This document shows, one piece after another, positions 905 through 63,804 of a stretch of DNA of 64,000 nt. The stretch lies in the NCBI GenBank assembly GCA_030710605.1, contig CP092882.1, positions 16,922,316 through 16,986,315 on the forward strand. The letters run 5' to 3'. Source of the DNA: Cordylochernes scorpioides (taxonomy: Eukaryota; Arthropoda; Arachnida; Pseudoscorpiones; Chernetidae). The position numbers and the translations under genes were made by a program. Position 1 is the first letter of the stretch, and every line of letters starts with the position of its first letter. The notes below the pieces were generated by a model. It made no database searches. It was not told the DNA's origin and saw nothing but the letters and a program-made list of their open reading frames with translations.

Positions 905-945
905 TCTCCTGACGAGGATAAAAGATTTTTGTCGAAATGTCGAGA
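905..945 (+). ncRNA. Hammerhead-like ribozyme motif (PLE-type terminus)
   Basis: CTGACGA at 909-915, an imperfect AT-rich helix II, GAAA at 934-937, then GTC at 939-941. UCUC (905-908) pairs with GAGA (942-945) as helix I, exactly where a type I hammerhead needs it. One extra purine sits between the CUGACGA box and helix II, and helix III has no loop unless two molecules pair, so self-cleavage is doubtful. The same family recurs as an inverted pair at 23937-24147, with the shared downstream text GGCCGAAGT. Confidence 0.5.
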
Positions 946-1051
946 TTATAAAAGGATTAACGGGCCGAAGTAGCTTTAATTTTATGAACAATGATTATAG
1001 TTATTGGTTTAAAAAATATTAAGAATAGTGTTATTTACAAACGAAACATAC

Positions 1052-1153
1052 CTTGCCAGTGGCAGGCTTATTGCAGCCTGCGCAAATTTGTTCCTTTGTG
1101 TCACTCATGGTGTCCTTAGCTTGACCTGCACATGATGCACATGTTAGTGACAT
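1052..1153 (-). CDS. Candidate coding exon, CxxC-CxxC peptide, unknown gene
   Basis: On the minus strand an ATG at 1151-1153 opens a 34-codon frame that runs exactly to an AAG|GTATGT splice donor (GT = plus AC at 1050-1051), in phase 0. The peptide has CASC at residues 5-8 and CAGC at 24-27, resembling half of a zinc-binding module. A second in-frame Met is at residue 16. No matching second exon was found in the 1 kb left to the window edge, and the region is repeat-rich. It may be a first exon or chance; I do not recognise the family. Confidence 0.3.
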
Positions 1154-1336
1154 TCCCCTCTTTACAATAAGCACACACACAAAGAACAAATATATAAAAC
1201 ACAAAAAATAGATTACATTTTATATTTAAATATATTCTCACTGGTATTCAAAAGTTATGTAATAAACAATAAAAGGAAGATTTTTTAATTAATGAAAGAT
1301 TATATGAAAGAAATTTGCATATATATATATTACATA

Positions 1337-1790
1337 ATCAACTAATAATATTGTTGCGTGCTCGACCTTTCGCAACGCTTCCTTACTGTGGCTGACCCTT
1401 TGTACCGTTGGCCTTCCCTACACTACCACCTGGGAGCCACGCCAACACGTGAAACTCTCCCAACCTCTGGCAGTATCCGTCAGCCTTACCACGGGTGGGG
1501 GGACAGTCAGGACTGACCAGAGGCGCAGCGATGTGTTGTCGGAAGGAGAGTCACGACCGCACAACGCCGAAGAACAAGAGCCTTTATTGAAACACTTTAT
1601 CTACATTTATGAATGGTCGCAATATCATATAACAAGTACTTTACATAATACAGGTGGCAGGATGAGGCTGGAGGAGGAATCATGCACAGAACCATTTATT
1701 TACAGGGGATGACGAAGGAACAGGACCAACAACAGAGTCAGAGCAGAGAAACGCCGCATAAATCCATGGCGCCACCTATTGGCCACTTTT
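1337..1790. other. GC-richer island in AT-rich DNA, unassigned
   Basis: Base composition shifts abruptly to GC-rich here. An 87-codon frame at 1449-1712 (plus) has no recognisable motif. The stretch ends near ATCCATGGCGCCACCTATTG (from about 1763), which resembles the ATGGCGC motif shared by the fold-back families. It may be an old transposon fragment. Confidence 0.3.
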
Positions 1791-1895
1791 AGAACTATTT
1801 TCTAACGCCATGCATGCCACACTATGTAAAAACAAGAGAAAAATATGACTCCTAATATTATGTTTAATTAATTAATAGGCTAATCCCTTAATAGA

Positions 1896-1972
1896 ATGTT
1901 CAAAACTATAAGTCTGAGGGATAAGTGTCTTTATAAAAGACACTTATCCCTCAGACTTATAGTTTTGAACAT
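1896..1972. repeat. Perfect 37-bp-arm palindrome, 3-nt loop
   Basis: Arms 1896-1932 and 1936-1972 are exact reverse complements around the loop ATA. The palindrome is bracketed by 16-bp direct repeats TAATATTATGTTTAAT at 1853-1868 and 1972-1987 (the second abuts the right arm). A perfect cruciform-prone hairpin between direct repeats suggests a recent fold-back duplication event. Confidence 0.85.
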
Positions 1973-2713
1973 AATATTATGTTTAATGGCGATATATTTA
2001 TACAATCACGAGTTTTATGGAAATCATTATATGAAGGATGGTTTAACATTTTTTTATTTTCAATCTTTTACATTCAATAAAATAATTTTGTTATTAACCT
2101 TTTTACACAAACATCACAGTGTATTATATATTAAGATAAAAATAGATATCTAAATATATGTATAATATTATATTTTCAACCCCTAAATATACTAATAGTT
2201 GGGTTTAAAATATGGATATTACTGGATTTTCAAAACGTTTATTTATATGTAAGGGAAAGGTATATAGATAAATTTTATTGCAGAAGTATTACTCTAAACA
2301 TTTGTATTTGAATGACGTCAATAGCCATAAAGTTAAGTGGTGCTAAGTGATAGCCACCTTTTTTTTTTCTTGGCAGAAGATGCAATATTTCACTCTCAAT
2401 ATTTTCAGCCAAAAATAAGATTTATTCCCCTTTATTTCGACTCATATATATATCATTTATGAAAATAACCAAATATTCGTTTTGTAATGGGAAGTTTTTA
2501 TATTTTAATTTTATAAATATTTTTTTTTTATACTAGCCGAATGACCCGGGCAACGCCCGGGGTTTACCCGATTAAATGCTTTTATTAAAATACTATTCGT
2601 TACAATTATAAATTGGCGCCGTGGATGTCATTCTTGTATAATATATAAATGGGTTTTAAAAATTGTAAAGAAAATGCATCGGACGGGAATCGAACCCGGG
2701 GCGCCCGCCACTA

Positions 2714-5700
2714 TCTACTTATATATTTGCCTTATTCTGTCTGTCTGTCTGAAGCTCACGGATAGAATGCGCGCCCATTGGCCGCCAGCAAACACGTGAC
2801 CTCCCTGCCCGCCCCCCTCTAGACAACCCTGTTATCAGCTGTGTGTTACATCCACCTGTCTATACACACCACCCTGTCTATAGCGGTCACCCTAGGCAAC
2901 CCTGTTATCAGCTGTGTGATGCATACACCTGTCTAAACAGACCACCCTGTCTATAGCGACCACTCTAGACAACCCTGTTATCAGCTGTGTGATACATCCA
3001 CCTGTCTATACAGACCACCCTGTCTATAGCGACCACTCTAGACAACCCTGTTATCAGCTGTGTGATACATCCACCTGTCTATACAGACCACCCTGTCTAT
3101 AGCGGCCACCCTAGACAACCCTGTTATCAGCTGTGTGATACATCCACCTGTCTATACAGACCACCCTGTCTATAGCGTTCACCCTAGACAACCCTGTTAT
3201 CAGCTGTGTGATACATCCACCTGTCTAAACAGACCACCCTGTCTATAGCGGTCACCTTCGGCAACCCTGTTATCATCAGTGTGATACATCCACCTGTCTA
3301 TACAGACCACCCTGTCTATAGTGACCACCCTAGACAACCCTGCTATCATCAGTGTGATACATCCACCTGTCTATACAGACCACCCTGTCTATAGCGACCA
3401 CTCTAGACAACCCTGTTATCAGCTGTGTGATACATCCACCTGTCTAAACAGACCACCCTGTCTATAGCGACCACTCTAGACAACCCTGTTATCAGCTGTG
3501 TGATACATCCACCTGTCTATACAGACCACCCTGTCCATAGCGACCACCCTAGACAACCCTGTTATCATCAGTGTGATACATCCACCTGTCTATACAGACC
3601 ACCCTGTCTATAGCGACCACTCTAGACAACCCTGTTATCAGCTGTGTGATACATCCACCTGTTTAAACAGACCACCCTGTCTATAGCGACCACTCTAGAC
3701 GACCCTGTTATCAGCTGTGTGATACATCCACCTGTCTATACAGAACACCCTGTCTATAGCGACCACCCTAGACAACCCTGTTATCAGCTGTGTGATACAT
3801 CCACCTGTTTAAACAGACCACCCTGTCTATAGCGACCACTCTAGACGACCCTGTTATCAGCTGTGTGATACATCCACCTGTCTATACAGAACACCCTGTC
3901 TATAGCGACCACCCTAGACAACCCTGTTATCAGCTGTGTGATACATCCACCTGTCTATACAGACCACCCTGTCTATAGCGACCACTCTAGATAACCCTGT
4001 TATCAGCTGTGTGATACATCCACCTGTCTATACAGACCACCCTGTCTATAGCGACCACCCTAGACAACCCTGTTATCAGCTGTGTGATACATCCACCTGT
4101 CTAAACAGACCACCCTGTATATAGCGGCCATTCTAGATAACCCTGTTATCAGCTGTGTGATACATACACCTGTCTATAGCGGCCACTCTAGACAACCCTG
4201 TTATCAGCTGTGTGATACATCCACCTGTCTATACAGACCACCCTGTCTATAGCGGTCACCCTAGGCAACCCTGTTATCAGCTGTGTGATGCATACACCTG
4301 TCTAAACAGACCACCCTGTCTATAGCGACCACTCTAGACAACCCTGTTATCAGCTGTGTGATACATCCACCTGTCTATACAGACCACCCTGTCTATAGCG
4401 ACCACTCTAGACAACCCTGTTATCAGCTGTGTGATACATCCACCTGTCTATACAGACCACCCTGTCTATAGCGACCACCCTAGACAACCCTGTTATCAGC
4501 TGTGTGATACATCCACCTGTCTATACAGACCACCCTGTCTATAGCGTTCACCCTAGACAACCCTGTTATCAGCTGTGTGATACATCCACCTGTCTATACG
4601 GACCACCCTGTCTATAGCGACCACCCTAGACAACCCTGTTATCAGCTGTGTGATACATCCACCTGTCTAAACAGACCACCCTGTCTATAGCGGTCACCTT
4701 CGGCAACCCTGTTATCATCAGTGTGATACATCCACCTGTCTATACAGACCACCCTGTCTATAGTGACCACCCTAGACAACCCTGTTATCAGCTGTGTGAT
4801 ACATCCACCTGTCTAAACAGACCACCCTGTATATAGCGGCCATTCTAGATAACCCTGTTATCAGCTGTGTGATACATACACCTGTCTATAGCGGCCACTC
4901 TAGACAACCCTGTTATCAGCTGTGTGATACATCCACCTGTCTATACAGACCACCCTGTCTATAGCGGTCACTTTAGGCAACCCTGTTATCAGCTGTGTGA
5001 TACATCCACCTGTCTATACAGACCACCCTGTCTATAGCGACCACCCTAGACAACCCTGCTATCATCAGTGTGATACATCCACCTGTCTATACAGACCACC
5101 CTGTCTATAGCGACACCTCGACATTCCACTCTAGAGAAACTTGCCAACATTGTTGTATTGTGCTGTAAAAAACAATATCATACGCAATATATATATATAT
5201 ATAGCGACCACTCTAGACAACCCTGTTATCAGCTGTGTGATACATCCACCTGTCTAAACAGACCACCCTGTCTATAGCGACCACTCTAGACAACCCTGTT
5301 ATCAGCTGTGTGATACATCCACCTGTCTATACAGACCACCCTGTCTATAGCGACCACCCTAGACAACCCTGTTATCAGCTGTGTGATGCATACACCTGTC
5401 TATACAGACCACCCTGTCTATAGCGACCACCCTAGACAACCCTGTTTTCAGCTGTGTGATACATCCACCTGTCTATACAGACCACCCTGTCTATAGCGAC
5501 CACCCTAGACAACCCTGTTATCAGCTGTGTGATACATCCACCTGTCTAAACAGACCACCCTGTCTATAGCGACCACCCTAGACAACCCTGTTATCAGCTG
5601 TGTGATACATCCACCTGTCTATACAGACCACCCTGTCTATAGCGACCACCCTAGACAACCCTGTTATCAGCTGTGTGATACATCCACCTGTCTATACAGA

Positions 5701-6303
5701 CCACCCTGTCTATAGCGACCACCCTAGACAACCCTGTTATCAGCTGTGTGATACATCCACCTGTCTATACAGACCACCCTGTCTATAGCGACCACCCTAG
5801 ACAACCCTGTTATCAGCTGTGTGATGCATACACCTGTCTATACAGACCACCCTGTCTATAGCGACCACCCTAGACAACCCTGTTTTCAGCTGTGTGATAC
5901 ATCCACCTGTCTATACAGACCACCCTGTCTATAGCGACCACCCTGGACAACCCTGTTATCAGCTGTGTGATACATCCACCTGTCTATACAGACCACCCTG
6001 TCTATAGCGACCACCCTAGACAACCCTGTTATCAGCTGTGTGATGCATACACCTGTCCATACAGACCACCCTGTCTATAGCGACCACCCTAGACAACCCT
6101 GTTATCAGCTGTGTGATACATCCACCTGTCTATACAGACCACCCAGTCTATAGCGGTCACCCTAGACAACCCTGTTATCAGCTGTGTGATACATCCACCT
6201 TTCTATACAGACCACCCTGTCAATAGCGACCACCCAAGACAACGTTTTTAAAATATATTCGCACTCGGGTAAACCCCGGGCGTTGCCCGGGCCATTCGTC
6301 TAG
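2714..6303 (+). mobile_element. Nested Helitron, plus strand, filled by a minisatellite
   Basis: Begins A|TCTACTTATATATTTGCC with a TCTGTCTGTCTG run near the 5' end (2714 on) and ends with the hairpin CCCGGGCGTTGCCCGGG, CCATTCGT and CTAG|T (6300-6303). Between the ends lies little but the 73-bp minisatellite. Copies of about 70 bp flank it directly (about 2639-2708 and 6305-6374, starting ATATATAAATGRGTTTT), so it sits in or caused a local duplication of its host element. No coding capacity is seen. Confidence 0.6.
2821..6243. repeat. 73-bp minisatellite, roughly 45 copies
   Basis: Repeat unit contains CAACCCTGTTATCAGCTGTG, ATACATCCACCTGTC and CCACCCTGTCTATAGCG; adjacent units start 73 bases apart (for example 3113 and 3186). 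Variants share GTGATGCATACACC, TTATCATCAGTG or a shortened unit near 4170 and 4870, and blocks of variants recur in the same order, showing higher-order duplication. An unrelated AT-rich patch interrupts the array at about 5115-5200. No conserved frame. Confidence 0.95.
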
Positions 6304-20745: not shown

Positions 20746-20957
20746 TTTTATATAAATAAAATGTATTTTTAATAAAAAGTCACGATTTTAGTTCAGATGT
20801 CTTTTTCTTAATTTATTAACCTGATCCCAGTAAAATTTCACTTTTGTACTGTTTTTTTCAGATTGTTTGGCGTTCTCACGTACTTCTGTGCCTTAACTAC
20901 CTGTTTGTGGATTTTTCAGGATGTCTGAAAGACCAGTTTTTCAGTTCGTTGAGGTAC

Positions 20958-21011
20958 AGCTTGCACCACGCTGATGAGGGCCAACAGCCCGAAACGCGTA
21001 CGTGTTTAGCT
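20958..21011 (+). ncRNA. Type I hammerhead ribozyme, complete core
   Basis: CUGAUGA at 20971-20977; helix II GGGC/GCCC (20978-20981 with 20987-20990) and loop CAACA; GAAA at 20991-20994; minimal helix III A-C/G-U (20994-20995 with 20998-20999) and loop GC; cleavage triplet GUA at 20998-21000; helix I CACG/CGUG (20967-20970 with 21001-21004), then an internal loop and a second helix AGCU/AGCU (20958-20961 with 21008-21011). All core residues are present. Short palindromic helix III (ACGCGU) is typical of PLE hammerheads, which can act as dimers. It precedes an HH-a arm. Confidence 0.8.
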
Positions 21012-21195
21012 TTTCTTGATTAATCAAGAATGGGTATTTGGTCAATTCTGGAATAATTAAATATCAAAGAGATTAGTTGATATTTATTCCGATAGATGGC
21101 GTAAGTCATCAGCAACTTTTAGTTGTATGATCAGAAGAGGCTTTTTTCTTAATTTATAAACCTGATCCCAGTACAATTTCACTTTTGTAACATTT
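21005..21195 (+). repeat. HH-a arm downstream of the hammerhead
   Basis: TTCTTGATTAATCAAGAATG, GTATTTGGTCAATTCTGG, TTGATATTTATTCCGATAGA, TGGCGTAAGTCATCAGCAAC and the end CCTGATCCCAGTACAATTTC. This is the only HH-a copy with an intact ribozyme attached, and so shows the longer original layout. Confidence 0.75.
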
Positions 21196-23912: not shown

Positions 23913-23936
23913 ACTTGTATAATATAACATTTCTAT

Positions 23937-24147
23937 GAAAAATAGACACTTCTGCCATTTAAGAGTTTTTTTTTTCTCTCAACGTTTCGACAAAAATCTT
24001 TTGTCTTCGTCAGGAGAAGTAAATACAATTTTTAACGCCTTGCCAAATGTTTTATTTTATTTACTTCTCCTGACGAAGACAAAATATTTTTGTCGAAACG
24101 TTGAGAAAAATAAAAAACTCTAACTGGCCGAAGTGTCTATTTTTTTA
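23937..24147. repeat. Inverted dimer of a hammerhead-like element
   Basis: Arms from about 23937-24023 and 24058-24147. The right arm (plus) has helix I UUCUC/GAGAA (24064-24068 pairing after GUU), CTGACGA, an A, helix II GACAAAA/UUUUUGUC and GAAACGUU. The left arm holds the mirror copy on the minus strand. Palindromic ACGU in place of helix III would need dimerisation. The tail AATAAAAAACTC matches the PLE-type end. Confidence 0.75.
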
Positions 24148-24244
24148 TAGAAATATGAATGCCGGCCAAGCATCCTCTATCTCCACGATAACAAACATGT
24201 AATCCGTGAACGAAAAAATGCTGCTTTAAAACGATATAAGATAT

Positions 24245-24560
24245 TAAGAAAAAAAGGCATTTCCTGATCGTGAGACTAAAAGTTGCTGATGACTTGCGCC
24301 ATCTATCGGAATAAATATTAACTAATCGTTGGTTTTTTAATTATTCCAGAATTTTGACCAAATACCGTTTCTTGATTAATCAAGAAATCAGCTTACCACG
24401 TACGTGTTTCGGTCTGTTGGTTCGAGTTCTTGATTAATCAAGAAACGGTATTTGGTCAATTCTGGAATTAATTAAAAATCAACAATTAGTTGATATTTAT
24501 TCAGATAGATGGCGCAAGTCATCAGCAACTTTTAGTTTCGCGATCAGGAAATGATTTAAA
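24245..24560. repeat. HH-a inverted dimer with half-hammerhead centre
   Basis: Arms begin AAAAAAGGCATTTCCTGATC and end with the inverse. ATTAATCAAGAAACGGTATT lies inside. Between the arms (24390-24425) the minus strand keeps CGAAACACGTACGTGG, the 3' half of the ribozyme, while the CUGAUGA half is lost. Confidence 0.8.
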
Positions 24561-24711
24561 AAAATTATCCACCTGATCCAAATACAAATGTTCCCAATTC
24601 ACTGTTATACTAATTTTCACAGATAAAAGAAATATCGTTAAAAAATAATAAACAGAATTAAAATAATACAACAGGTTAGTGGAGATGAGTTTATTTTCAT
24701 TTAACAAAAAA

Positions 24712-25922: not shown

Positions 25923-28546
25923 GTTAAACCTGTCTATAGTGCCCCCTCTTGGGACTTACCAAAATAGGGTGCTATAGAGAGGATGTGCTATAGACAAGTC
26001 ACTTTTAATGTAAATCGCATTGTACTACGTATTTAAAATCGGGCGCTATTTAGAGGGGGTGCTATAGACAGGTCACTTAATGTAAATCGCATTGTACTAC
26101 GTATTTAAAATCGGGCGCTATTTAGAGGGGGTGCTATAGACAGGTCACTTTTAATGTAAATCGCATTGTACTACGTATTTGAAATAGGGCGCTATTTAGA
26201 GGGGGTGCTATAGACAGGTCACTTTTAATGTAAATCGCATCGTACTATGTATTTAAAATCGGGCGCTATTTAGAGGGGGGTGCTATAGACAGGTCACTTT
26301 TAATGTAAATCGCATTGTACTACGTATTTAAAACCGGGCGCTATTTAGAGAGGATGTGCTATAGACAGGTCGCTTTTAATGTAAATATCGCATTGTACTA
26401 CGTATTTAAAATCGGGCGCTATTTAGGGGGGTGCTATAGACAGGTCACTTTAAATGTAAATCGCATTGTACTACGTATTTAAAATCTGGCGCTATTTAGA
26501 AGGGGTGCTATAGACAGGTCACTCTTTTAATGTAAATCGCATCGTACTACGTATTTAAAATCGGGCGCTATTTAAAAGGGGTGCTATAGACAGGTCACTT
26601 TTAATGTAAATCGCATTGTACTACGTATTTAAAATCGGGTGCTATTTAGAGGGGGTTGCTATAGACAGGTCCCTTTTAATGTAAATCGCATCGTACTACG
26701 TATTTGAAATAGGGTGCTATTTAGAGGGGGTGCTATAGACAGGTCACTTTTAATGTAAATCGCATTGTATTATGTATTTAAAACCGGGCGCTATTTAGAG
26801 GGGGTGCTATAGACAGGTCACTTTTAATGTAAATCGCATTGTACTACGTATTTAAAATCGGGCGCTATTTAGAGGGGGTGCTATAGACAGGTCACTTTGA
26901 ATGTAAATCGCACCGTACTACGTATTTAAAATCGGGCGCTATTTAGAGGGGGTGCTATAGACAGGTCACTTTAAATGTAAATCGCACCGTACTACGTATT
27001 TAAAATCGGGCGCTATTTAGAGGGGGTGCTATAGACAGGTCACTTTTAATGTAAATCGCATTGTACTACGTATTTAAAATCGGGCGCTATTTAGAGGGGG
27101 TGCTAAAGACAGGTCACTTTTAATGTAAATCGCATTGTACTACGTATTTAAAATCGGGCGCTATTTAGAGGGGGTGCTATAGACAGGTCACTTTTAATGT
27201 AAATATCGCATTGTACTACGTATTTAAAATCGGGCGCTATTTAGAGGGGGTGCTATAGACAGGTCACTTTTAATGTAAATATCGCATTGTACTACTTATT
27301 TAAAATCGGGCGCTATTTCGAGGGGGTGCTATAGACAGGTCACTTTTAATGTAAATCGCATTGTACTACGTATTTAAAATCGGGCGCTATTTAGAGGGGG
27401 TGCTATAGACAGGTCACTTTTAATGTAAATATCGCATTGTACTACTTATTTAAAATCGGGCGCTATTTAGAGGGGGTGCTATAGACAGGTCACTTTTAAT
27501 GTAAATATCGCATTGTACTACGTATTTAAAATCGGGCGCTATTTAGAGGGGGTGCTATAGACAGGTCACTTTTAATGTAAATATCGCATTGTACTACTTA
27601 TTTAAAATCGGGCGCTATTTAGAGGGGGTGCTATAGACAGGTCACTTTGAATGTAAATCGCATTGTACTACGTATTTGAAATCGGGCGCTATTTAGAGGG
27701 GGGGGGGGGCTATAGACAGGTCACTTTTAAATGTAAATTGCATCGTACTACGTATTTGAAATAGGGCGCTATTTAGAGGGGGTGCTATAGACAGGTCACT
27801 TTTAATGTAAATCGCATTGTATTACGTATTTAAAATCGGGCGCTATTTAGAGGGGGTGCTATAGACAGGTTACTTTTAATGTAAATCGCATTGTATTATG
27901 TATTTAAAACCGGGCGCTATTTAGAGGGGGTGCTATAGACAGGTCACTTTTAATGTAAATCGCATTGTACTACGTATTTAAAATCGGGCGCTATTTAGAG
28001 GGGGTGCTATAGACAGGTCACTTTGAATGTAAATCGCATTGTACTACGTATTTAAAATCGGGCGCTATTTAGAGGGGGTGCTATAGACAGGTCACTTTTA
28101 ATGTAAATCGCATTGTACTACGTATTTAAAATCGGGCGCTATTTAGAGGGGGTGCTATAGACAGGTCACTTTTAATGTAAATCGCATTGTATTACGTATT
28201 TAAAATCGGGCGCTATTTAGAGGGGGTGCTATAGACAGGTCACTTTTAATGTAAATCGCATCGTACTACGTATTTAAAATCGGGCGCTATTTAGAGTGGG
28301 TGCTATAGACAGGTCACTTTTAATGTAAATCGCATTGTACTACGTATTTAAAATCGGGCGCTATTTAGAGGGGGTGCTATAGACAGGTCACTTTTAATGT
28401 AAATCGCATTGTACTACGTATTTAAAATCGGGCGCTATTTAGAGGGGGTGCTATAGACAAGTCACTTTTAATGTAAATCGCATTGTATTACGTATTTAAA
28501 ACCGGGCGCTATTTAGAGGGGGGTGCTATAGAGAGGTTTAACTGTA
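25923..28546. mobile_element. TA-flanked element whose interior is a 74-bp satellite of its own terminus
   Basis: Ends CAGTTAAACCTGTCTATAGT (left) and CTATAGAGAGGTTTAACTG (right) are inverted repeats next to TA, as in pogo-like MITEs. Between them lie about 35 units of 74 bp containing ATGTAAATCGCATTGTACTA, CGTATTTAAAATCGGGCGCT and GGGGGTGCTATAGACAGGT. The last block is the terminal repeat itself. Variant units (CGCACCG, TAAATATCGC, GAAATAGGGC) are interspersed, showing repeated exchange. No conserved frame. Confidence 0.9.
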
Positions 28547-28597
28547 TAATTATTTGAAAAAGGAACAATAAAATTCAAGTAAAGAGTTTCTTTGGTT

Positions 28598-28640
28598 TTT
28601 ACAAGCTTTCGAGTTAATTTTCTGCTCTTCATCAGGCAAA
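28598..28640 (-). ncRNA. Hammerhead-like motif with 5-bp helix I
   Basis: Minus strand: UUUGC (28640-28636), CUGAUGA, an A, GAG...CUC helix II, GAAA (28610-28607), GCUU, then GUAAA (28602-28598). UUUGC/GUAAA pairs fully with one G-U. The CUGAUGA box is canonical; the extra A and loopless AGCU helix III are the non-standard features. AAAGAAACTC follows downstream (28590-28580). Confidence 0.55.
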
Positions 28641-28699
28641 TACTTCTATATATAATATCAAGATGATCTTCATACAAAAATAATATTCCCATAATTATT

Positions 28700-28876: not shown

Positions 28877-28931
28877 AAACTAATATATGGATTGCTCTAT
28901 TTTCAAACGCACATAAATATAAATATAAGAA

Positions 28932-29212
28932 AAAGGCATCTCCTTAATGTGCAACTGAAGGTTGCTGATGGCTTGCGCCATCTATCGGAATAAATATAAA
29001 CTATTCTCGTTGATTTTTAATTATTCCAGAATTGGCCAAATACCCATTCTTGATTAATCAATGGTTAGCTTTTCTTGATTAATCTAAAATGGGTATTTGG
29101 CCAATTCTGGAATAATTAAAAATCAACGAGAATAGTTGATATTTATTCCGATAAATGGCGCAAGCCATCAGCAACCTTCAGTTGCACGATAAGGAGATGC
29201 CTTTTTCTTAAT
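28932..29212. repeat. HH-a inverted dimer, complete
   Basis: Arms about 125 bp (28932-29057 and 29087-29212) with outer GGCATCTCC, inner GTATTTGGCCAATTCTGG, and a centre TTGATTAATCAATGGTTAGC where the ribozyme used to be; only GGTTAGCTTTTCTTGA of it remains. Confidence 0.8.
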
Positions 29213-29359
29213 TTATGCACCTTATCCCAGTACAATATCACATTTGTACTATTTTTTCAAATTATAAATATATACTATGTTTCGAGCAAAATTTTTCTTC
29301 CGTAAATATCAAGTAGAATGTTTTGTAAAGTGAAGGACTTGACCTAGAGCGACGGTAAT

Positions 29360-32059: not shown

Positions 32060-32780
32060 CGCGTTTGGCTTAGTTATGCTTCCTCAGGTGGATGACCTTG
32101 TGCAAAAATTGAGGAACCATTGAAGCATTTATTTATTTTTTAACTGTGCTTCTCATTCGTATTTGCGTTTAGATCTTTGCCCCAATATAAATACGGCCAC
32201 ATTTCCTCCAACATATTTATTACCACTGAACTTTCTTAAACTCATCTTTCACTCCCTAAATCTTTGATTCTATTGGACGATCAGCTTCTCCACGCCACAC
32301 ACAACGTTACTTGAAATCTCAGTAGAGTGGCTTCCAGTCTTCTAATCTCAATGTTTACAAATATTGAACATTGCGACCCCACTTCACAAGCAGGTGGCAG
32401 TTACGTACATGCTGATATTTCCAGAATATTCAATAACCACTCCATCAGACCGCACAGCAAAGAAGGGAACCAAACTTACAATTCCAAACAGTCGATCTTC
32501 TTTTCAAATGATATCCATCCTTCCCTCTCCAGAAATCACAAAGTAAAACTCTTCCCAAGGCCAACATATTTAAGAGAGGCAGAAACATTAAGAAACCATC
32601 CCAAAAATAAAGAGTTCTAGAGACACATGAGTTGGGTACTAGAGCAATAATACTGAGGGAAAACCCAGGCAGTTGGCCACTTCTGTAAGTTCCAGAAGTC
32701 CAAGTTACGAACAGATAATGATGATGAAAAATTGGCTGTGAAATGTAATAGAAGCTGGTGTAGAGAGGGTCAAGAGCTCT
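32060..32780. other. Mixed-composition DNA, no recognised gene
   Basis: Overlapping frames on both strands (plus 32327-32620, 97 codons; minus 32445-32870, 141 codons) have no domain I can name and the minus frame runs into the satellite. The stretch is less AT-rich than average and could be an old element; left uncalled. Confidence 0.35.
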
Positions 32781-32784
32781 TGAG

Positions 32785-34320
32785 AGATGACAATGTATGT
32801 TTATATTTATCATTGCTACCAGAATTGTCCGAATTGTAATAGGAGCTGGTCTAGAGAGCTCTCGGGACATGACAAATGTATGTTTATATTTATCATTGCT
32901 ACCAGAATTGTCCGAAATGTAATAGGAGCTGGTCTAGAGAGCTCTCGGGACATGACAAATGTATGTTTATATTTATCATTGCTACCAGAATTGTCCGAAA
33001 TGTAATAGGAGCTGGTCTAGAGAGCTCTCGGGACATGACAAATGTATGTTTATATTTATCATTGCTACCAGAATTGTCCGAATTGTAATAGGAGCTGGTC
33101 TAGAGAGCTCTCGGGACATGACAAATGTATGTTTATATTTATCATTGCTACCAGAATTGTCCGAATTGTAATAGGAGCTGGTCTAGAGAGCTCTCGGGAC
33201 ATGACAAATGTATGTTTATATTTATCATTGCTACCAGAATTGTCCGAATTGTAATAGGAGCTGGTCTAGAGAGCTCTCGGGACATGACAAATGTATGTTT
33301 ATATTTATCATTGCTACCAGAATTGTCCGAATTGTAATAGGAGCTGGTCTAGAGAGCTCTCGGGACATGACAAATGTATGTTTATATTTATCATTGCTAC
33401 CAGAATTGTCCGAAATGTAATAGGAGCTGGTCTAGAGAGCTCTCGGGACATGACAAATGTATGTTTATATTTATCATTGCTACCAGAATTGTCCGAATTG
33501 TAATAGGAGCTGGTCTAGAGAGCTCTCGGGACATGACAAATGTATGTTTATATTTATCATTGCTACCAGAATTGTCCGAATTGTAATAGGAGCTGGTCTA
33601 GAGAGCTCTCGGGACATGACAAATGTATGTTTATATTTATCATTGCTACCAGAATTGTCCGAATTGTAATAGGAGCTGGTCTAGAGAGCTCTCGGGACAT
33701 GACAAATGTATGTTTATATTTATCATTGCTACCAGAATTGTCCGAATTGTAATAGGAGCTGGTCTAGAGAGCTCTCGGGACATGACAAATGTATGTTTAT
33801 ATTTATCATTGCTACCAGAATTGTCCGAATGGTAATATGATCTGGTGTAGAGAGGGTCAAGAGTTCTCGGCAGATGACGAATAACATTGGTCTACTATTG
33901 CTGCGATTGTCTGAAGTGTAATAAGAACTAATATACTTGAGAGGGCCAAGAGCTCTCGGGAGATGATGAATGCATGTTTATACATTTAGATGCCATTGGT
34001 GCCAGAAATGTCTGAATTGTAAAAATAGCTGGTTTAGATAGGGTCTAGAGAGCTCTCGGGAGATGACAAATGTATGTTTATATTTATCATTGCTACTATA
34101 ATTGTCCGAATTGTAATAGGAGCTGGTCTAGAGAGCTCTCGGGAGATGACAAATGTATGTTTATATTTATCATTGCTGCCAGAATTGTCCGAATTGTAAT
34201 AGGAGCTGGTCTAGAGAGAGGGCCAAGAGCTCTCGGGAGAGGACGAGAAAACACCGGTCTACTATTACTGGGATTGTCTGAAGTGTAATAAGAACTAATC
34301 TACTCGAGAGGGCTCCAGAA
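32785..34320. repeat. 83-bp minisatellite, homogeneous core and degenerate right flank
   Basis: Units start every 83 bases (32876, 32959, 33042 ...) and contain AATAGGAGCTGGTCTAGAGA, GCTCTCGGGACATGACAAAT, GTATGTTTATATTTATCATT and GCTACCAGAATTGTCCGAA. About a dozen units to 33830 are nearly identical, differing mainly at GAAATG/GAATTG. From 33830 to 34320 units are diverged and of uneven length. Frames across it exist only because 83 is not a multiple of three and the unit has few stops. Confidence 0.95.
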
Positions 34321-34756
34321 CTCTATGGAGAGACGACGAATGTAGATATGTTCTCTCTCTCCAATGTGAAGGTTCTAAACCAAAGTTCCGTGGTATTGTA
34401 TAGACCAAAGTGTAGAACCCCATAGTGTTACCACTAAGTAGTGTTGAAAGAATCATGGCGTGTGCAGTGACATAAGGAAACTTGAGACCGGTAATGGACA
34501 ATCGAAACTCAGCAGGTGTCTGGCCACTTGCCAATTTCCTTTTTGGGTCACGTGATAACCTTTCTTCACCCTCATTGGATGGTGTCGTGACATCTTGACC
34601 TAGCACCACGTGACCTCCTACGCACATTTACCTACATTAGCTACTCTTCCTGTGATGCAAGGATGGTACAAACCCGTGTAGAGATATGTTATGCTATGTA
34701 TCAGTTGCGAGCGTCATTTAATAAATAAGGTAGGCTAATCCCAAATAAACCTGAAA

Positions 34757-37496: not shown

Positions 37497-37687
37497 TCTA
37501 TTATTTAACAGGTATAAAGTAGAGTTTTTTTTTGAATAATTAAAAGTTTGCATGTAAATTTACATAAATAACTATTAAGAAAATATAGGTTTTTAAAAAT
37601 AACTAATTTTCACTAAAAACAATTAAACAGAGAGATTATTGAAAAAATAATAGAGATAGATCTATCGAAATCTTAAATTTCTTTATT

Positions 37688-37735
37688 TCCCGACCTTTCG
37701 ACCTCTCATCTTCTTCAGGAAGTCACTGAAACGTT
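37688..37735 (-). ncRNA. Hammerhead-like motif
   Basis: Minus strand: CUUC, CUGAAGA (fits CUGANGA), A, GAU/GUC helix II with loop GAGAG, GAAA, GGUC, GGG, then AAATAAAGAAATTT tail. Helix I would be C-G, U-G, U-G, so it is weak. Located next to a partly repeated tail at 37738-37760 (AAATAAAGAAATTAAAG). Confidence 0.4.
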
Positions 37736-38767: not shown

Positions 38768-38825
38768 TTCATAAACGATATCTCGAGCTTTCGGGTATCG
38801 TAAACCCTTCGACAGGAGTGTATAA
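38768..38825 (-). ncRNA. Hammerhead-like motif
   Basis: Minus strand: CUC, CUGUCGA, A, GGGU/ACCC helix II with loop UUACGAU, GAAA, GCUC, GAG, then a tail GAAATAAAGAAACTTATCC. Helix I CUC/GAG pairs. The A6 of the core is U, which should abolish catalysis. Confidence 0.45.
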
Positions 38826-39824: not shown

Positions 39825-40015
39825 AGGACGCCTCTTATGTTAAAATAGACGCTAAAACTAAGCGCCATCTATTGACCGTCTTCACAAACTAGCGGACTCA
39901 GGTCGTTGACAAAGCCACAACACCAGCGTCCACCTAAGAAGCATCCACCTGGAGACCATGATTTCGGACTAATGGCCCTCGTCAGTACAGGGCGGGCTTT
40001 AATTCCATGAGATCC
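39825..40015 (-). repeat. HH-c copy carrying a hammerhead
   Basis: AAAATAGACGCTAAAACTAA and GCGCCATCTATTGACCGTCT at left, CAAAGCCACAACACC, then the ribozyme and GGGCTTTAATTCCATGAGAT. The same order recurs at 45765-46215 and 46480-46640. Confidence 0.75.
39944..39996 (-). ncRNA. Hammerhead ribozyme in HH-c
   Basis: Minus strand: CUGACGA (39985-39979), helix II GGGC/GUCC with loop CAUUA and one G-U, GAAA (39965-39962), helix III AUC/GGU around loop AU with one U-G, cleavage triplet GUC (39956-39954). Helix I is CCUGUA against UCCAGG, with one mismatch. All catalytic boxes are intact and there is no extra purine, unlike the PLE-tail motifs. Confidence 0.7.
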
Positions 40016-40619: not shown

Positions 40620-41220
40620 TCGTTTTCCAGCGCAAAATCCCGATCTATATCTCCTATCATAATACAGACAATCCCAGTCATCAATTTTATTAATGTAATG
40701 ACAGCAACCTGGCTAGTAGATATATAGATAGTGAAATATCTTCTTTCTTATCTCCACTCAATCATATCAGGGTATCACGTTATGACCCTTGATGGTGTCT
40801 GTTTGACAACCACTGGGTGAAGTAGAATGTTTTTGTCATTAAGACTGGGAGCACTACTCATTGGCAGGCCAACTTAGCTTCAAAAGAAATGGCTGCCTCT
40901 GACATGAGGAACAGATACCATGTGCAGCCACTCCTAACATGGAGTACAAACGCTGCTCATCCTGTATCCCTGGATTAGGAGCCCTTACAGGGTACTATCA
41001 GCCGGGCCAGCTGAACCCAGTTTTTTTAGCGAGCTTGTTACTGCTCCCCTCCTCCTTTTTCATCCGGGCTTGGGACCGGCAAAGGCGAAGTTGATAGTGA
41101 AAGATGAGGGTTAAGATAGTTCACAAATCTATTGGAAATTGTGAAGGAATTTGTAAAAGGATTCTAAGGTAAACAAAAAATAAATAAAAGTTATGATGAT
41201 TACTAATAAGTATTACTATT
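40620..41220. other. Mixed sequence, nothing recognised
   Basis: Contains moderately GC-rich text (CAGCCGGGCCAGCTGAACCC near 41000) with no open frame, inverted repeat or element end I can support. Confidence 0.4.
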
Positions 41221-56519: not shown

Positions 56520-56600
56520 AAAGAGTTTCTTTTTATTAAAAAAAGGGGGGGGGCAAGCTTTCACGTAGCCGCACTTCATCAGGCTAATGGCTCCGCAAAG
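56520..56600 (-). ncRNA. Hammerhead-like motif with PLE-type tail
   Basis: Minus strand: GC, CUGAUGA (canonical), A, weak GUG/CGU helix II, GAAA, GCUU, GC, then a C run and TTAATAAAAAGAAACTC. Helix I reduced to GC/GC. Confidence 0.45.
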
Positions 56601-56831: not shown

Positions 56832-57010
56832 TTATGAAAAAGGCATCTCCTTTTATCGTGCAACTGAAAGTTGCTGATGGCTTGCGCCATCTATCGGAAT
56901 AAATATCAACTATTCTCGTTGATTTTTAATTATTCCAGAATTGGCCAGATACCCATTCTTGATTAATCAAGAAAAGTTAACCACGGACGCGTTTCGGGTA
57001 GTTAAGGCCA
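56832..57010 (-). repeat. HH-a arm with half-hammerhead
   Basis: AAAAAGGCATCTCCTTTTAT to AATTGGCCAGATACCCATTC, then minus-strand CCCGAAACGCGTCCGTGG at 57003-56986, with GUC as the triplet. The CUGAUGA half is not found. Confidence 0.7.
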
Positions 57011-57084
57011 GAATTGCGTGAGACCGCGACACAATGTGAAAAAATAGTACAAATGTGATATTATACTGGGATAAGGTGCATAAA

Positions 57085-57205
57085 TTATGAAAAAGGCATC
57101 TCCGTATCGTGCAACTGAAAGTTGCTGATGGCTTGCGCGATCTATCAGAATAAATATCAACTATTCTCGTTGATTTTTGATTATTCCAGAATTGGCCAAA
57201 TATAT
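57085..57205 (-). repeat. HH-a arm, second direct copy
   Basis: AAAAAGGCATCTCCGTATCG to AATTGGCCAAATA, same orientation as 56832. The intervening 57035-57085 text AAAAATAGTACAAATGTGAT is the outer flank of HH-a also seen at 36480 and 41690. Confidence 0.7.
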
Positions 57206-58199: not shown

Positions 58200-58245
58200 G
58201 CGGAGTCGTTGGCCTGATGAAGCAAGACCGTGTTAAAGCTTGTCC
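58200..58245 (+). ncRNA. Degenerate hammerhead-like motif
   Basis: GGC, CUGAUGA, A, GCA...UGU helix II, UAAA in place of GAAA, GCUU, GUC. Helix I GGC/GUC forms 3 pairs. A (TA)n run lies just upstream at 58140-58160. Confidence 0.35.
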
Positions 58246-58249
58246 CTTT

Positions 58250-58875: not shown

Positions 58876-58885
58876 TGAGATATAT

Positions 58886-59265: not shown

Positions 59266-59627
59266 TAAATAATTAATAAATAAAAATGTTTTTTTAAGCT
59301 TTTATTTAAATGCTCTAAAAGATAAAAATAAAATATTGTATATTCTGTCATTGAGCAATTAGATGTATCTGAGTGAAAATAAAAGCGGCTTGGGACGATC
59401 ATCACGAATTTCGAACCTAATGTGATTTAATATGTAGTAACTGATTTTTATAAGTGTTTGTTATATTTTTACCTCTTCTCTAAATATGATCATCCCCTAC
59501 CTCTTTTATTTTCACTCAGATACATCTAATTGCTCAATGACAGAAGATACAATATTTTATTTTTATCTTTTTAGTGCATTTAAATAAAAGCTTTTTTAAA
59601 AATGTATTTTTATTTATTAATTATTTA
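59266..59627. repeat. Palindrome with about 140-bp arms
   Basis: Left TAAATAATTAATAAATAAAA to about 59402 and right from about 59486 to TTATTAATTATTTA at 59627. Shared CATTGAGCAATTAGATGTAT and CACTCAGATACATCTAATTG. The roughly 80-nt centre is unrelated. No hammerhead box is visible, so this may be a different fold-back family. Confidence 0.8.
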
Positions 59628-59639
59628 GTTAGTTTTTAG

Positions 59640-61190
59640 TCATGTATTAACAAAATTTAGAATCAAAAGTTCACTGGGGATTAGGCCTTAAATAGACTGA
59701 AGCCTGCTCGCTGCGGATTGGTCAATTCCTTGAAAGAGGTGAAACATAAGACTTGAAAAAAAAAAAATTGTTCATTCCTGGCCACTCCGATCACCCAGAA
59801 GTCTGAAAATTTGTACACTTGCATTGTTCATTGGACTGAGTGAGTGTTAAAAGTTTCATACTTCTATGTGATCTAGAAGCGTATTAAAATTAAATTTTAA
59901 ATTTTGAAAGGCAATTTGAAAATTTGTCCGTTCCTGCCCATTCTTACAACCGAGAAGTTTATTATCTGTTTTAATATTTAGATTTTTCAATATAGTCCAA
60001 TGCATGCCTACGGGTTTACACGCCAATTTTTATTTTGTCTTGTAAATGGTTTCATTTTTCTTGTTATATTGGTAATCTGCTAGATAAATTTTTTCTCTAA
60101 AGCTTGCGTCACCTCAAAGATAAAGATATGCTTTATCTAACAGCCAAATTTTCGTATTTGAGTATATTGTCGCGTGTGTTTCACCTGGTCCTTTATGCGA
60201 CAACGCCGCTTTTTCCCGTGGATCACCAACCGTGCCGCCATCGCCTCTCCTCTGCAGCTTTTGGATGCCAAAAAATTTCTATCCTTCTACTTTTCAAAAC
60301 AAAAACAGTTATTCGAAATAAGTTGTCTTGTAAATCATGCGCGCTTCTTTTGAAGCGAGGGAATCGGCTAAAGTCTTGAAGCGCGCCATCTGTTAACGGA
60401 GGTTGTAACTGTTTTATTTTCTAGGCAAAAATCCGTAACAATAAAATGAATTTATAGCTTTGACGATATACATATGATCACGCAGCAAGATCCATTTCTA
60501 TCTATCTAAATATGATGATGTATCTTTGTCCATTTGCCTGTCATTGATTCAACTCGGAAACGGTTGGGAGTTGAGATTTTTGAGCGATTATTCATTACCT
60601 CAAAGGAGGAATAAATCCAAAATTTCAGGTTTCTATCTCAAATCTCCTTGGAGTTACAAGCCAAATCTGCCAAAAGATGTATCAGAGGCGCAATGTGTGA
60701 GCGCGCGCTTCACGCGGAGAGAGAGATTCCCAGCATCAGCAGTTTTCAAAGCTAACCTATTTATGATGGGATTGATTCCAAAAAGTTTAACTGGACATAA
60801 AGCATTGGAATGTTTTGGAGTCAACATTTAACGGTTATGAAAAAGAGATATTAATAACCTAGGTTCTCTCTATTGGAGCGCAGAACGCCAAATACCCGAC
60901 GGTTATGGTTTAATAATATCTTGGAGTTACATGCGATAAACTATCAAAATTTAACATGAAGATTGATAAATCTCTTATTAATATAAATAATTGGTTTATC
61001 ATTAAACATAAATATTTGATGCCTGTTATTTATTTTGTCTATATATTTGTATTAGTATATATGCACTTTTTACTTTAAATAAAACTTTTTAAAATAATTG
61101 AACATTAAATTTATAATTTGTATATTGCATAGGAGAGATATTTTTCTGTCAAGTATTGCGCGCTTATTTAAAATAAAATACAAAGTATAT
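59640..61190. other. Complex DNA, two unrecognised frames
   Basis: Plus frames 60104-60379 (91 codons) and 60526-60831 (101 codons, contains QLGNGWELRFLSDYSLPQRR) have reasonable composition but no family signature, and no splice context makes them exons. AAGCGCGCCATCTGTTAACG at 60380 is an HH-d end. Sequence here is more complex than the AT-rich deserts. Confidence 0.35.
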
Positions 61191-61194
61191 GTGT

Positions 61195-61707
61195 AATAAC
61201 GAATAGATTCAAAAAGGATAAGTTTCTTTATTTGAAAAATCAATTCGAGCTTTCGGGCGCAAGCTGCCCTTCTACAGGAATAATGGATACAATTTCAAGT
61301 AGTCATGTATGTACAGATATATATATTTTCTTTAAATGGTTTCTCGCTTTGGTCTTGTATAGCGTGAGTGGATCACATGCCCACGTGATTTAGTTTGAAT
61401 CAAAGAAAAGCCTTGATAAAGAGAGGCGTGTTGCCTCTAGAAATACTAGCTGATTAATAATTTATATCCAGTATTTTTTATTTTTTATCAAGGCTTTTCT
61501 TTGATTTAAACTAAATCACGTGGGCATGTGATCCACTCACGCTTTACAAGACCAAAGCGAGAAACCATTTAAAGAAAATATATATCTGTACATACATGAC
61601 TACTTGAAATTGTATCCATTATTCCTGTAGAAGGGCAGCTTGCGCCCGAAAGCTCGAATTGATTTTTCAAATAAAGAAACTTATCCTTTTTGAATCTATT
61701 CGTTATT
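61195..61707. repeat. Palindrome with about 225-bp arms, hammerhead-like motif in each arm
   Basis: Left arm 61195-61420, right arm 61484-61707, loop about 63 nt. Shared GATCACATGCCCACGTGATT with its inverse. The right arm (plus, about 61624-61665) reads AUUC, CUGUAGA, A, GGGC/GCCC helix II, GAAA, GCUC, GAAU, then AAATAAAGAAACTTATCC. Helix I AUUC/GAAU pairs, but core A6 is U. The left arm is the mirror image. Arms differ at only a few positions. Confidence 0.85.
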
Positions 61708-61709
61708 AT

Positions 61710-62425
61710 AATTATTGAAAGGATTATTCGTCTTAAAGTATATTTGTGAAACAAAATTTGAAGTAAAAAAAAGCTGAAGGCAGATATAAAAGCAGATATT
61801 TTAGCTGAGATGTTAGTCCTCTCTTCCAGAGAAACAAATTCTCCTCGTTACTTCTATTCATAAGCTACAGTTAGAGGTATATAACATGTGTGCTCTGCGT
61901 TACCAAGACTTATTGCATGTTTTGACTACATATTTCGTTTGTTTCTTAAATACATAGTGTCTACTTCTTACATACATCCTTACTACTTCTTGAAGGCTTA
62001 GCGTACATTTTCAAATTTGATATACATATATATGTCATAATATTTATAAATATTTAAATAAAGATGGCCTGTGCGGGAATATGAGAAATGGGAAGAAAAA
62101 ATGACTTGATCAGAATCCTCTGGGTGACCATATGTCCAGCCTTTTAAAAACCGACATTTTTAGCAACTCCCCGTCTCACCCCTTTTCCCTGGGAACTAAT
62201 TTAGCTTACTGCGAAAGCATCTAGATTTGATGATCAAGAGGCAGTTCTTACTGAGGTGATCTTTGCACCAGTTGTTCTTAGGGTGGTCCTCGGGCCTTCT
62301 CTTTCCTCCCTCCAACCAACTCCTCGCGGGTTTTGACTCCTGAATGCCTCTTGTGTGCGCCCTTACCACTTGCCACCCAACCATCACGGCTTTTTCACAA
62401 ATAACCATTATATATCAATTAAGAA
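61710..62425. other. Mixed DNA, nothing recognised
   Basis: The minus frame 62196-62408 is arginine/lysine-rich with no known motif. Sequence near 62130-62350 is GC-richer. Confidence 0.35.
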
Positions 62426-62426
62426 G

Positions 62427-63804
62427 GATTAGAAGATGAGTTTCTTTATTGTAAGAACGCTACGAGCTTTCGGACAAAAGTCCTTCAACGGGCATAAATA
62501 TAACTATACTAAGAAAGATAACGATGGCTGTAGGAAATATATACACGTATTGGTTTTACATAGAAATAAAAATAAAATATTAAGAATATAAAAATATTAA
62601 GAATATAAAGAAGGACATGCAAATGATCAATCTAACTATTTGTAAAAGTGAAAAATACGGAAATAAAAATTCTAGAGAGCAAATCAGGAAATGCAGAAAA
62701 CATTAGTTGAAAGAAAAAAGGAATATTAATGAGACAAAAATATGACTGTAATGGATGGTGGGAAAGGGGGGGGGGGGTTATTAATATGCTAAAGGTAGAA
62801 TCTGAAAAAGTTTAATTGGAAATGTAGTTTGAGTAGACTGCGGGGATGTCTATTTTTCTATTTATACTGTGTAGCTTGGTTGAAACTATGGCTTCCAGAA
62901 CCAATCTCTGGTGTAGGTTGGAGATATTTTTGTAGTGAATGGTTGGGTTAGTAGTGTCAAAGGAATGGCCAGAAGATGCAATGTGTTGAAAAATAAGGGA
63001 ACGAGTGTCTCGGTTGGTGATGTTGCGTGTGTGTTCGGACATTCTGATGGCGATGGTTCTACCGGTCTCCCCCACATAGGTGGCGGGACACTGTTGGCAC
63101 GAGACCGAGTAGACTGCTCCAGTAGATGTTAGAGGATCAATGGAGGTGTCGGTTTTTGTGATGGGATGCCTAAGGAGTGAGTGGAGGTTAGGTGTGTTAG
63201 TAAAAAAGGTACGGATGCCAAAAGGTTTGAGGAAACGGGAGAGGTTAACTGAAAGGGGAGAGAATGGGATCACACACGTGGATTTGCAAGTTGCAGGAGG
63301 GTTTAGAGGAACAGGTGAATAGGTGTGTTTTTCTATGAAGGATAGAGGGAAACCTGAACTTGTAAGATGGGAGATGATGCGGTTCTTTTCAATAGTTTTG
63401 AAGATGGGAAGTGAACAGTGGGTTAGTAGGCGGCGGGTGAGGGCTTTAACTATATTGATTTTGTGGGAGGTTGGGCAGTGTGACCTATAATGGGTGTATC
63501 TGGGGGGGTGGTTTTTCTTGTAGTAGACTGTGGCGGGGAAGGAGTTTTTCCCGCCCTCTACAATCACTCTAGAGGGGAGTGAGTTGAGAGGCGTCTCTGC
63601 GTGTTGTCCTCCGTCGGGGTGCCACTGACTGATGTCCAGTGAAGCTGTAAGCTGGCCGTCTGTCCTTGGTTGTCTGAGGCGAGGCGCACGTGTCTTGAAA
63701 CTCTTGGGTCTTCGCTCTGTGTGTGCGTCATTGGGAGCGTCCTTGCCGTGCGCACCATGAGAAACCAAGGGGTGCACACAGTAGTACCACCCCCCCGCGT
63801 TCAC
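62427..63804 (-). mobile_element. Penelope-like element, 5'-truncated
   Basis: Contains the GIY-YIG ORF and, at its minus-strand 3' end, CCCGTTGAAGGACTTTTGTC, CGAAAGCTCGTAGC and AATAAAGAAACTCATC (about 62490-62430), the same tail as the hammerhead-like repeats across the window. Between the stop codon and the tail lie about 320 bases of AT-rich 3' UTR with a G run (62765-62778). The reverse transcriptase core is missing upstream; sequence above 63540 changes to GC-rich and may be unrelated. Confidence 0.75.
62812..63804 (-). CDS. Penelope-like retroelement protein: RT C-terminal end, linker, GIY-YIG endonuclease
   Basis: 330 codons, longest frame in the window. Residues 92-160 (VYYKKNHPPRYTHYRSHCPT ... 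GFPLSFIE) match the end of the PLE reverse transcriptase. Residues 161-228 are the linker. The GIY-YIG domain follows: AVYSVSC (230-236), CxxC at C236/C239, YVGETGR (243-249), Arg254, EH 257-258 and Glu304 as the probable metal ligand. Residues 1-90 do not look like RT and are GC-rich, so the first Met is probably not the original start and the element is 5'-truncated. The endonuclease part appears intact, but without RT it cannot act alone. Confidence 0.85.
   Translation of the reverse strand: MNAGGWYYCVHPLVSHGAHGKDAPNDAHTERRPKSFKTRAPRLRQPRTDGQLTASLDISQWHPDGGQHAETPLNSLPSRVIVEGGKNSFPATVYYKKNHPPRYTHYRSHCPTSHKINIVKALTRRLLTHCSLPIFKTIEKNRIISHLTSSGFPLSFIEKHTYSPVPLNPPATCKSTCVIPFSPLSVNLSRFLKPFGIRTFFTNTPNLHSLLRHPITKTDTSIDPLTSTGAVYSVSCQQCPATYVGETGRTIAIRMSEHTRNITNRDTRSLIFQHIASSGHSFDTTNPTIHYKNISNLHQRLVLEAIVSTKLHSINRKIDIPAVYSNYISN

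Follow-up and report, generated by a model that had tools for sequence, protein, structure and literature searches.

Penelope-like elements (PLEs) are known to carry hammerhead ribozymes in their pseudo-long terminal repeat (pLTR), the region between tandem open reading frames (ORFs). As portrayed in excerpts of the review PMC7761336, these are minimal type I motifs without helix III, which may cut as dimers and occur in thousands of copies per genome (Cervera and De la Pena 2014; Lunse, Weinberg and Breaker 2017). Here we analyze similar motifs in a 64,000-nt stretch of the genome of the pseudoscorpion Cordylochernes scorpioides (GCA_030710605.1, contig CP092882.1, positions 16,922,316 to 16,986,315 of the forward strand; hereafter the window, with positions counted from its first letter). 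The sites very probably represent minimal type I hammerheads or their decayed descendants; those with the stem III palindrome AGCU lie in the pLTR of PLEs, and we propose that they dock as dimers and cleave. The motif itself is real and selected. Location, anatomy and covariation of the AGCU type are observed here, and cleavage and its dimer dependence would follow by analogy with the published family.

The hammerhead kind and its location in PLEs are known already, and so are further traits of the motif. The first-pass annotation of the window had put forward a loopless palindromic helix III and an extra purine before helix II as distinguishing marks. PLE motifs without helix III (PMC7761336), palindromic stems or loops III in other hammerheads (passages of PMC7229834 and PMC3088659) and alignments that already allow insertions of 1-2 nt between CUGAnGA and the stem (in the portion of PMC10085705 concerned) take the novelty from both. 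Amphibian hammerheads, according to PMC7229834, share a single-pair stem III, a palindromic loop and better activity as dimers; they differ in belonging to tandem satellite or retrozyme repeats and in their loop-loop contacts. In the anole PLE PAc, too, the hammerhead lies close to the pLTR-ORF junction, and reverse transcriptase (RT) begins at two neighbouring sites, from which both DNA strands are extended and which define an optional tail as in our copies; insertion of PAc in vitro is reported to be independent of ribozyme activity (sections of PMC11167929). At a tandem junction found here the ATG lies ~100 nt downstream of the motif, a difference from PAc. The Penelope element of Adineta vaga shares inverted pLTRs, head-to-head arrangement, target duplications and a tail on one inverted pLTR; its target duplications measure 8-10 bp and its optional tail 31 bp, compared to flanking repeats of 12-16 bp in many copies here, and its authors favour self-priming on an antisense template (as excerpted from PMC3846280). 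Compared with the known PLE hammerheads, as they appear in titles and citing reviews, most AGCU sites here have an extra base after A9, and U replaces A at core position 6 in 77% of the AGCU matches with either base. The unusual feature is this prevalence of U6, with the stems kept and with a second motif type (stem III ACGU) that provides a contrast in having A6. Changes of A6 are described as rare and harmful in the part of PMC3088659 that treats them, and we found no A6U hammerhead core in a literature search that did not reach the text of the 2014 and 2017 PLE papers.

The motif in the window and in the genome

We scanned both strands of the window for the order X, CTGNNGA, 0 or 1 nt, helix II (at least 3 bp), GAAA, 4 nt, X' (at least 3 bp), with 100 dinucleotide shuffles as control. 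Nine matches were found compared to a mean of 0.13 (maximum 1) in the shuffles, so that a shuffled-sequence background does not account for the pattern. The scan recovered six of the nine sites of the first-pass annotation (five of the nine lie on the minus strand), including one weak site (-37718). Two further matches, -24013 and -61277, are inverted twins of +24070 and +61625 that were absent from that list, and the match at +37185 was judged to be due to chance, given its long helix II loop and its stem III AAGA. The sites were also scored with a model, R1, trained on seven window and seven genomic sites, for which the scores are circular.

The type I hammerhead core with A6 (CUGANGA...GAAA, with A15.1-U16.1 and H17) is present at five sites, all detected by the scan and by R1. 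The site at 902..948 (+; scan +909), from an ACGU-type family, has stem I UCUC/GAGA, a helix II of 7 bp, stem III AUGU, C as H17 and the core CUGACGA with an extra G. The one at 24063..24109 (+; scan +24070) combines stem I UUCUC/GAGAA, stem III ACGU, U as H17 and CUGACGA with an extra A, and has its twin at 23974..24020 (-; scan -24013). At 28596..28642 (-; scan -28635) stem I is UUUGC/GUAAA and stem III AGCU, with the core CUGAUGA, an extra A and a helix II of 3 bp. The weak, partly decayed site at 37685..37725 (-; scan -37718) has a 3-bp stem I with wobbles and a non-palindromic stem III, AGGU.

Position 6 deviates at four sites. Three are U6 hammerheads found by the scan and by R1: 38778..38822 (-; scan -38815), with the core CUGUCGA, stem I CUC/GAG, helix II GGGU/ACCC and stem III AGCU, and the left and right arms of a palindrome at 61240..61284 (-; scan -61277) and 61618..61662 (+; scan +61625), both with the core CUGUAGA. 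Stem I of the right arm is AUUC/GAAU and AAATAAAGAAACTT follows; for the stretch 61575-61715, 45 genomic matches with 97-100% identity were obtained (from 40 scored of 2,149 first-look candidates). The fourth, at 62457..62498 (-), is a hammerhead remnant with the broken core CGTTGA in the 3' region of a PLE, followed by AATAAAGAAACTC (R1 18.6 bits, E 0.01). Two listed sites are decayed: 56553..56584 (-), not found by the pattern scan, gives a partial R1 match (11.3 bits, E 1.5), and 58200..58245 (+), in which GAAA has become TAAA, is matched by neither pattern nor model. The claim of nine motif sites thus stands for seven recognizable ones, one of them weak and one with a broken core, and not for those listed at 56520-56600 and 58200-58245; that all nine are intact is to be rejected. 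The gathering score of the Rfam 15 hammerhead families is reached by none in the window, and microRNA-like Rfam matches there correspond to palindromes.

The search was extended to the 2.62-Gb genome (24 contigs, the window lying within contig C20) with patterns in which core position 6 could be A or U and the gap 11-19 nt; the control was the pattern read backwards. The AGCU type had 86,709 exact matches (control 615) and the ACGU type 69,835 (control 2,036). Both tetranucleotides are self-complementary by inspection; they are fixed in the search patterns, so that their frequency is not independent evidence, and the presence of G8, A9 and GAAA, fixed as well, is no evidence in itself. With C or T as last base, the AGCU type had 16,353 matches with A6 (control 125) and 55,156 with U6 (control 311), and with the last base free 2,029 with C or G at position 6 (control 330). 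A further 12,392 matches to an AGCU pattern without G8 (control 3,940) fit decay. Among 100 ACGU matches listed, 99 had A and one had U at position 6. U6 is therefore a feature of the AGCU type and not of the whole genome, and the idea that it is the commonest core genome-wide was discarded. So was the impression that AGCU far outnumbers ACGU, which came from a fixed 14-nt-gap pattern that missed the main ACGU families; helix II of the ACGU type is, for example, GGTAAC/GTTACC or GACAAAA/TTTTGTC (places on contig C1; window sites 909, 24013 and 24070). Matches resembling CTGACGANCCTNATNTGNCCA (L008, L044, L079, L082 and L096) have no stem II in the expected register and were rejected as hammerheads.

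AGCU sites were fetched by the core pattern alone and stem I was examined afterwards, which avoids circularity. Stem I reached at least 3 bp in 18 of 40 A6 sites compared to a mean of 15.6% after shuffling of the partners (the observed value was reached in 0 of 2000 shuffles), and in 20 of 34 U6 sites compared to 7.1 expected (0 of 5000); U6 locus L187, for which no downstream flank was fetched, was left out of this count. Clustering of the 74 A6 and U6 sites by their flanks yielded 38 clusters with one representative each, 24 of them U6. Pair I-2 was formed in 30 of the 38 (15.8 when shuffled) and pair I-3 in 26 (16.6 when shuffled), values that 0 of 4000 shuffles reached in either case; slid partners paired in 31-45%, compared to 76% in the true register. 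A compensating pair distinguishes the related copies L103 (UAU/AUG) and L118 (UAC/GUG). A helix II of at least 3 bp, preceded by a single additional base after A9, was present in 26 of the 40 A6 sites (A 21, T 4, G 1) and in 30 of the 34 U6 sites (A 29, T 1), and N7 is variable, as in hammerheads.

Stems I and II are supported by covariation in the AGCU type, the type that the test covered. The covariation of helix I between families proposed in the first-pass annotation is confirmed over about 3 bp, with pairing at I-2 and I-3 above all shuffles; the proposed extra purine before helix II mostly recurs in the AGCU sites, with T in its place in some. The suggestion of a selected RNA structure is borne out as a hammerhead-like RNA at element termini, backed by stem I tests on sites that had not been selected for stem I. 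An earlier count on 14 hand-picked motifs pointed in the same direction in a selected sample. For the ACGU type, stem I of at least 3 bp was counted in 20 of 67 sites (7.4% when shuffled), a value on which we do not rely, as the 67 include non-hammerheads of the CTGACGANCCTNATNTGNCCA kind and the count misreads ~20 sites of a CACG/CGTG family with a stem III of 6 nt.

Penelope-like elements as carriers

Judging from their protein similarities, the carriers of the AGCU type are PLEs that combine RT and GIY-YIG endonuclease (EN) in one ORF. The window itself holds the C-terminal part of such an ORF with the EN at 62812..63831 (-; protein 62815-63831), where GIY-YIG scores 18.7 bits, below the cut-off of 22.6. 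Its relative L149 passes the Pfam cut-off with 28.4 bits, L151 stays below it with 16.9 bits, and L147 matches no Pfam entry at 0.1; a PDB search with the L147 protein gave 0 matches. RVT_1 matches the RT stretch of copy L014 with 42.4 bits. The PLE EN was found in the ~1.4 kb upstream of four of six distinct AGCU families (L147, L149, L150 and L151). Moreover, of 28 loci that had been fetched for another motif, three (L043, L045 and L046) hold the EN, and immediately 3' of it on the same strand each has an AGCU-type motif; two of these motifs carry U6, the third both C4 and U6. The distance from the RT-GIY-YIG ORF to the AGCU motif is 150-480 nt, and an AATAAA-like signal follows downstream in 63 of the 74 A6 and U6 sites (strict AATAAA in 52).

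The PLE family represented in the window is highly uniform. For a 212-residue stretch of its protein, 150 genomic matches were scored, at 93-100% identity (of 53,834 first-look candidates). In each of the 30 copies fetched, the EN match is followed after 315-481 nt by the same motif remnant and then by AATAAAGAAACTC or a close variant, and the 34-nt motif string of this family (62457..62498) has 163 exact genomic copies. Near-identical proteins, numerous exact motif copies and a broken core together hint that the family does not depend on self-cleavage to spread. All 37 motif instances in L009-L038 run on through the AATAAA..ACTC signal, three of them at internal tandem junctions. At the tandem junction in L138, the EN stop is followed by the motif remnant, AATAAAGAAACTC, 76 nt and an ATG whose frame stays open over the 100 codons left in the piece; the tandem unit measures ~2.79 kb. 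Tandem non-coding units of 150-450 bp, as in retrozymes, were not seen for the AGCU type in the neighbour statistics.

Overall, the AGCU type shows a PLE-like tandem or inverted pLTR layout with target duplication and an optional tail. Motif neighbours within 4 kb of the first 100 A6 AGCU places comprised 20 outward compared to 1 inward arrangements (0.7 each at random), and those of the first 100 U6 places 15 compared to 3 (1.7 each at random). For 100 listed of the 163 exact copies in the broken-core family, 34 outward and no inward pairs occurred within 10 kb, so that head-to-head pairs comprise 68 of these 100 motifs; for the EN, pairs within 10 kb numbered 19 outward, 0 inward and 1 on the same strand. 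In the window, the insertion at 61187..61715 is a palindrome with U6 hammerheads at both outward ends and arms 97-98% complementary, for which only an imperfect candidate target duplication was found. Self-alignment revealed a second palindromic insertion at 23929..24154, with outward-facing ACGU-type hammerheads at both ends; no target duplication was found there. According to fold prediction, 23929-24154 as one RNA forms a single hairpin (-121.2 kcal/mol, z -21.8), which would hide the ribozyme.

Target duplications were examined in further palindromes. All seven coding palindromes have duplications of 12-16 bp, and six of eight short palindromes (L139-L146) have 12-14 bp; L144 has none, and a 13-nt repeat in L146 lies at unexpected distances and was left uncounted. 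At least 12 nt were shared in 14 of 15 own flanks compared to 3 of 210 mispaired flanks (one with 16 nt). The ends occur in two lengths: in short palindromes they lie 51-56 or 80-99 nt past GAAAGCT, and in coding palindromes 60-67 or 94-100 nt past CCCGTTGAAGGAC, i.e. ~45 to 85 nt beyond the expected cut point. One short and one long end were combined in 13 of 13 palindromes with a counted duplication (L010, L013, L016/L037, L023/L025, L026/L028, L030, L032, L139-L143 and L145); the probability of 5.5e-5 for this outcome is indicative only, since the end frequencies come from overlapping data. The head-to-head layout is already known, and its scale and the regularity of the mixed ends are the addition from this genome. 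The rule of one short and one long end constrains how PLEs integrate.

The ACGU type, which includes the window sites +909 and +24070/-24013, was not assigned to PLEs, and an origin from PLEs is a guess from its layout. Its neighbours among 100 places listed were 12 outward, 1 inward and 2 on the same strand within 500 bp, and 13 outward compared to 8 inward within 4 kb. An EN near ACGU sites was dismissed as proof of PLE membership, because loci with an EN have their own AGCU motif and none of ten upstream stretches was positive. Close same-strand runs of ACGU motifs are rare, an example being three motifs 92 bp apart on contig C1.

Proposed cleavage and rival explanations

In the arrangement we propose, the AGCU type sits in the pLTR of PLEs, and the order, as read from one tandem junction, would be the RT-GIY-YIG ORF, 150-480 nt, the motif, a AATAAAGAAACT-like signal, ~75 nt and the ATG of the next ORF; the ACGU type would be the same kind of motif on other elements. 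The ribozyme would have a stem I of ~3 bp and, between A9 and stem II in the majority of AGCU sites, an additional base that is usually A. As stem III is only a 4-nt palindrome, a full hammerhead is out of reach for one copy alone and the pairing needs two copies, which might dock through this palindrome either within one tandem RNA or between two RNAs. The cut would then fall after C or U (H17), just before X'. Motifs of the broken-core family run past this point, so that the RNAs which templated those insertions were presumably not cut there. Uncut templates, U6 and the broken core suggest that cleavage is weak or dispensable, and a weak and conditional role on tandem transcripts is more likely than one that insertion depends on.

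A bolder version, which we consider rather doubtful when all its parts are taken together, is that CUGUNGA plus one base is a functional core that is held slow and is now standard in AGCU-type PLEs here, attenuation having proceeded stepwise through dimer dependence, the extra base, U6 and, last, the broken core, with A6 kept by the ACGU type. The argument would be that reverse transcription must start downstream of the cut, so that an efficient ribozyme would destroy its own template. The ~16,000 A6 and ~55,000 U6 AGCU matches, the A6-keeping ACGU type and the young broken-core family form a natural experiment, in which ribozyme activity across the cores compared to recent copy number would tell whether cleavage matters for mobility.

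Several observations weigh against PLE-borne, cleaving hammerheads as the explanation of these sites. U6 makes up 77% of the A6 and U6 AGCU matches (55,156 of 71,509), the core is broken in all 30 fetched copies of the window PLE family, and a natural A6C phage hammerhead is slow (kobs <0.1 per min, by the account in PMC3088659). Covariation amounts to two stem I columns plus stem II, which was partly used in keeping sites; pair I-1 is C-G almost throughout, pairs I-4 and I-5 do not rise above the shuffles, and 14 of the 40 A6 sites have no helix II of at least 3 bp with the extra base. As to the carriers, two of the six AGCU families (L148 and L152) show no PLE EN in the ~1.4 kb upstream, neither PLE EN nor RT was detected (E 0.1) in any of ten ~1.4-kb stretches upstream of ACGU motifs, and with a narrower ACGU pattern the EN was found in only three of 28 loci, each with its own AGCU-type motif.

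The alternative we take most seriously, while giving it the lesser share of our confidence, is that the fold has been kept and catalysis mostly lost, the AGCU motif being an ex-ribozyme that serves as a structural signal of PLE RNA, through dimerization via AGCU or binding of a PLE protein. The same predominance of U6 in 55,156 of 71,509 matches would be expected from it, as would the broken core of a family whose motif string has 163 exact copies and the continuation of 37 out of 37 motif instances in that family past the cut site; ribozyme mutants of the anole PLE leave insertion in vitro unchanged, as PMC11167929 puts it in the section concerned. Against this, the stems are kept in U6 sites, N7 varies as in hammerheads, and C or G at position 6 is limited to 2,029 matches (control 330), so that A or U is either demanded or recently inherited; the decay-like matches without G8 do not separate this explanation from an active ribozyme.

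The remaining alternatives concern the nature of the elements. It is improbable that some of the sites, chiefly those of the ACGU type, are parts of retrozymes or other small non-autonomous elements of this sort with hammerheads. In favour of this alternative, type I hammerheads on short non-coding elements are widespread in animals (thus the relevant part of PMC7229834), PLE ORFs are found in 0 of 10 ACGU stretches and a few close same-strand runs exist, such as the three motifs 92 bp apart on C1, whereas close ACGU neighbours are mostly outward (12 compared to 1 inward and 2 on the same strand within 500 bp, 100 places listed) and AGCU motifs lie in coding PLE copies. That the palindromic sites are ends of DNA transposons, i.e. 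miniature inverted-repeat transposable elements with terminal inverted repeats, and only incidentally resemble hammerheads is very improbable. For the AGCU type, coding PLE copies show the same head-to-head layout (19 outward, 0 inward and 1 same-strand EN pairs), and the palindrome ends are unequal in length, with duplications of 12-16 bp, as in PLEs (from what PMC3846280 describes in part); such an explanation would draw on the nearly perfect inverted repeats at 61187-61715 and 23929-24154 and on the failure to find an ORF for ACGU elements in the upstream stretches examined. Chance matches in AT-rich repeats, to which the short helices and the two unsupported sites among the nine listed might point, we regard as already refuted by the dinucleotide shuffles, the reversed-pattern controls and the stem I tests on unselected sites.

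Further ribozyme-like and repeat features

A near-textbook hammerhead without the extra base lies at 20964-21007 (+), with stem I CACG/CGUG, helix II GGGC/GCCC and a 6-nt palindromic stem III, ACGCGU. The sole Rfam hammerhead trace in the window, HH9 with 20.4 bits (gathering score 52), is found at 20955-21020 and was unlisted by the first-pass annotation. The family pattern of the 20964-21007 hammerhead has 1,524 exact genomic matches, and palindromic truncated relatives lie at 24243-24587, 28918-29255 and 56832-57202. Hammerhead-like sites with a putative stem III palindrome of ~8 nt occur at 39985 and 46552 (-), the latter with ACCAUGGU.

At 41046-41097 (-), a sub-threshold match to the type-P1 twister (42.9 bits, gathering score 67.2) is perhaps a truncated twister of the kind that a passage of PMC7761336 places at the 5' ends of RTE retrotransposons. 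Finally, self-alignment revealed tandem arrays at 2814-6243, 25961-28537 and 32740-34336, with periods of ~73, 74 and 83 bp, respectively.

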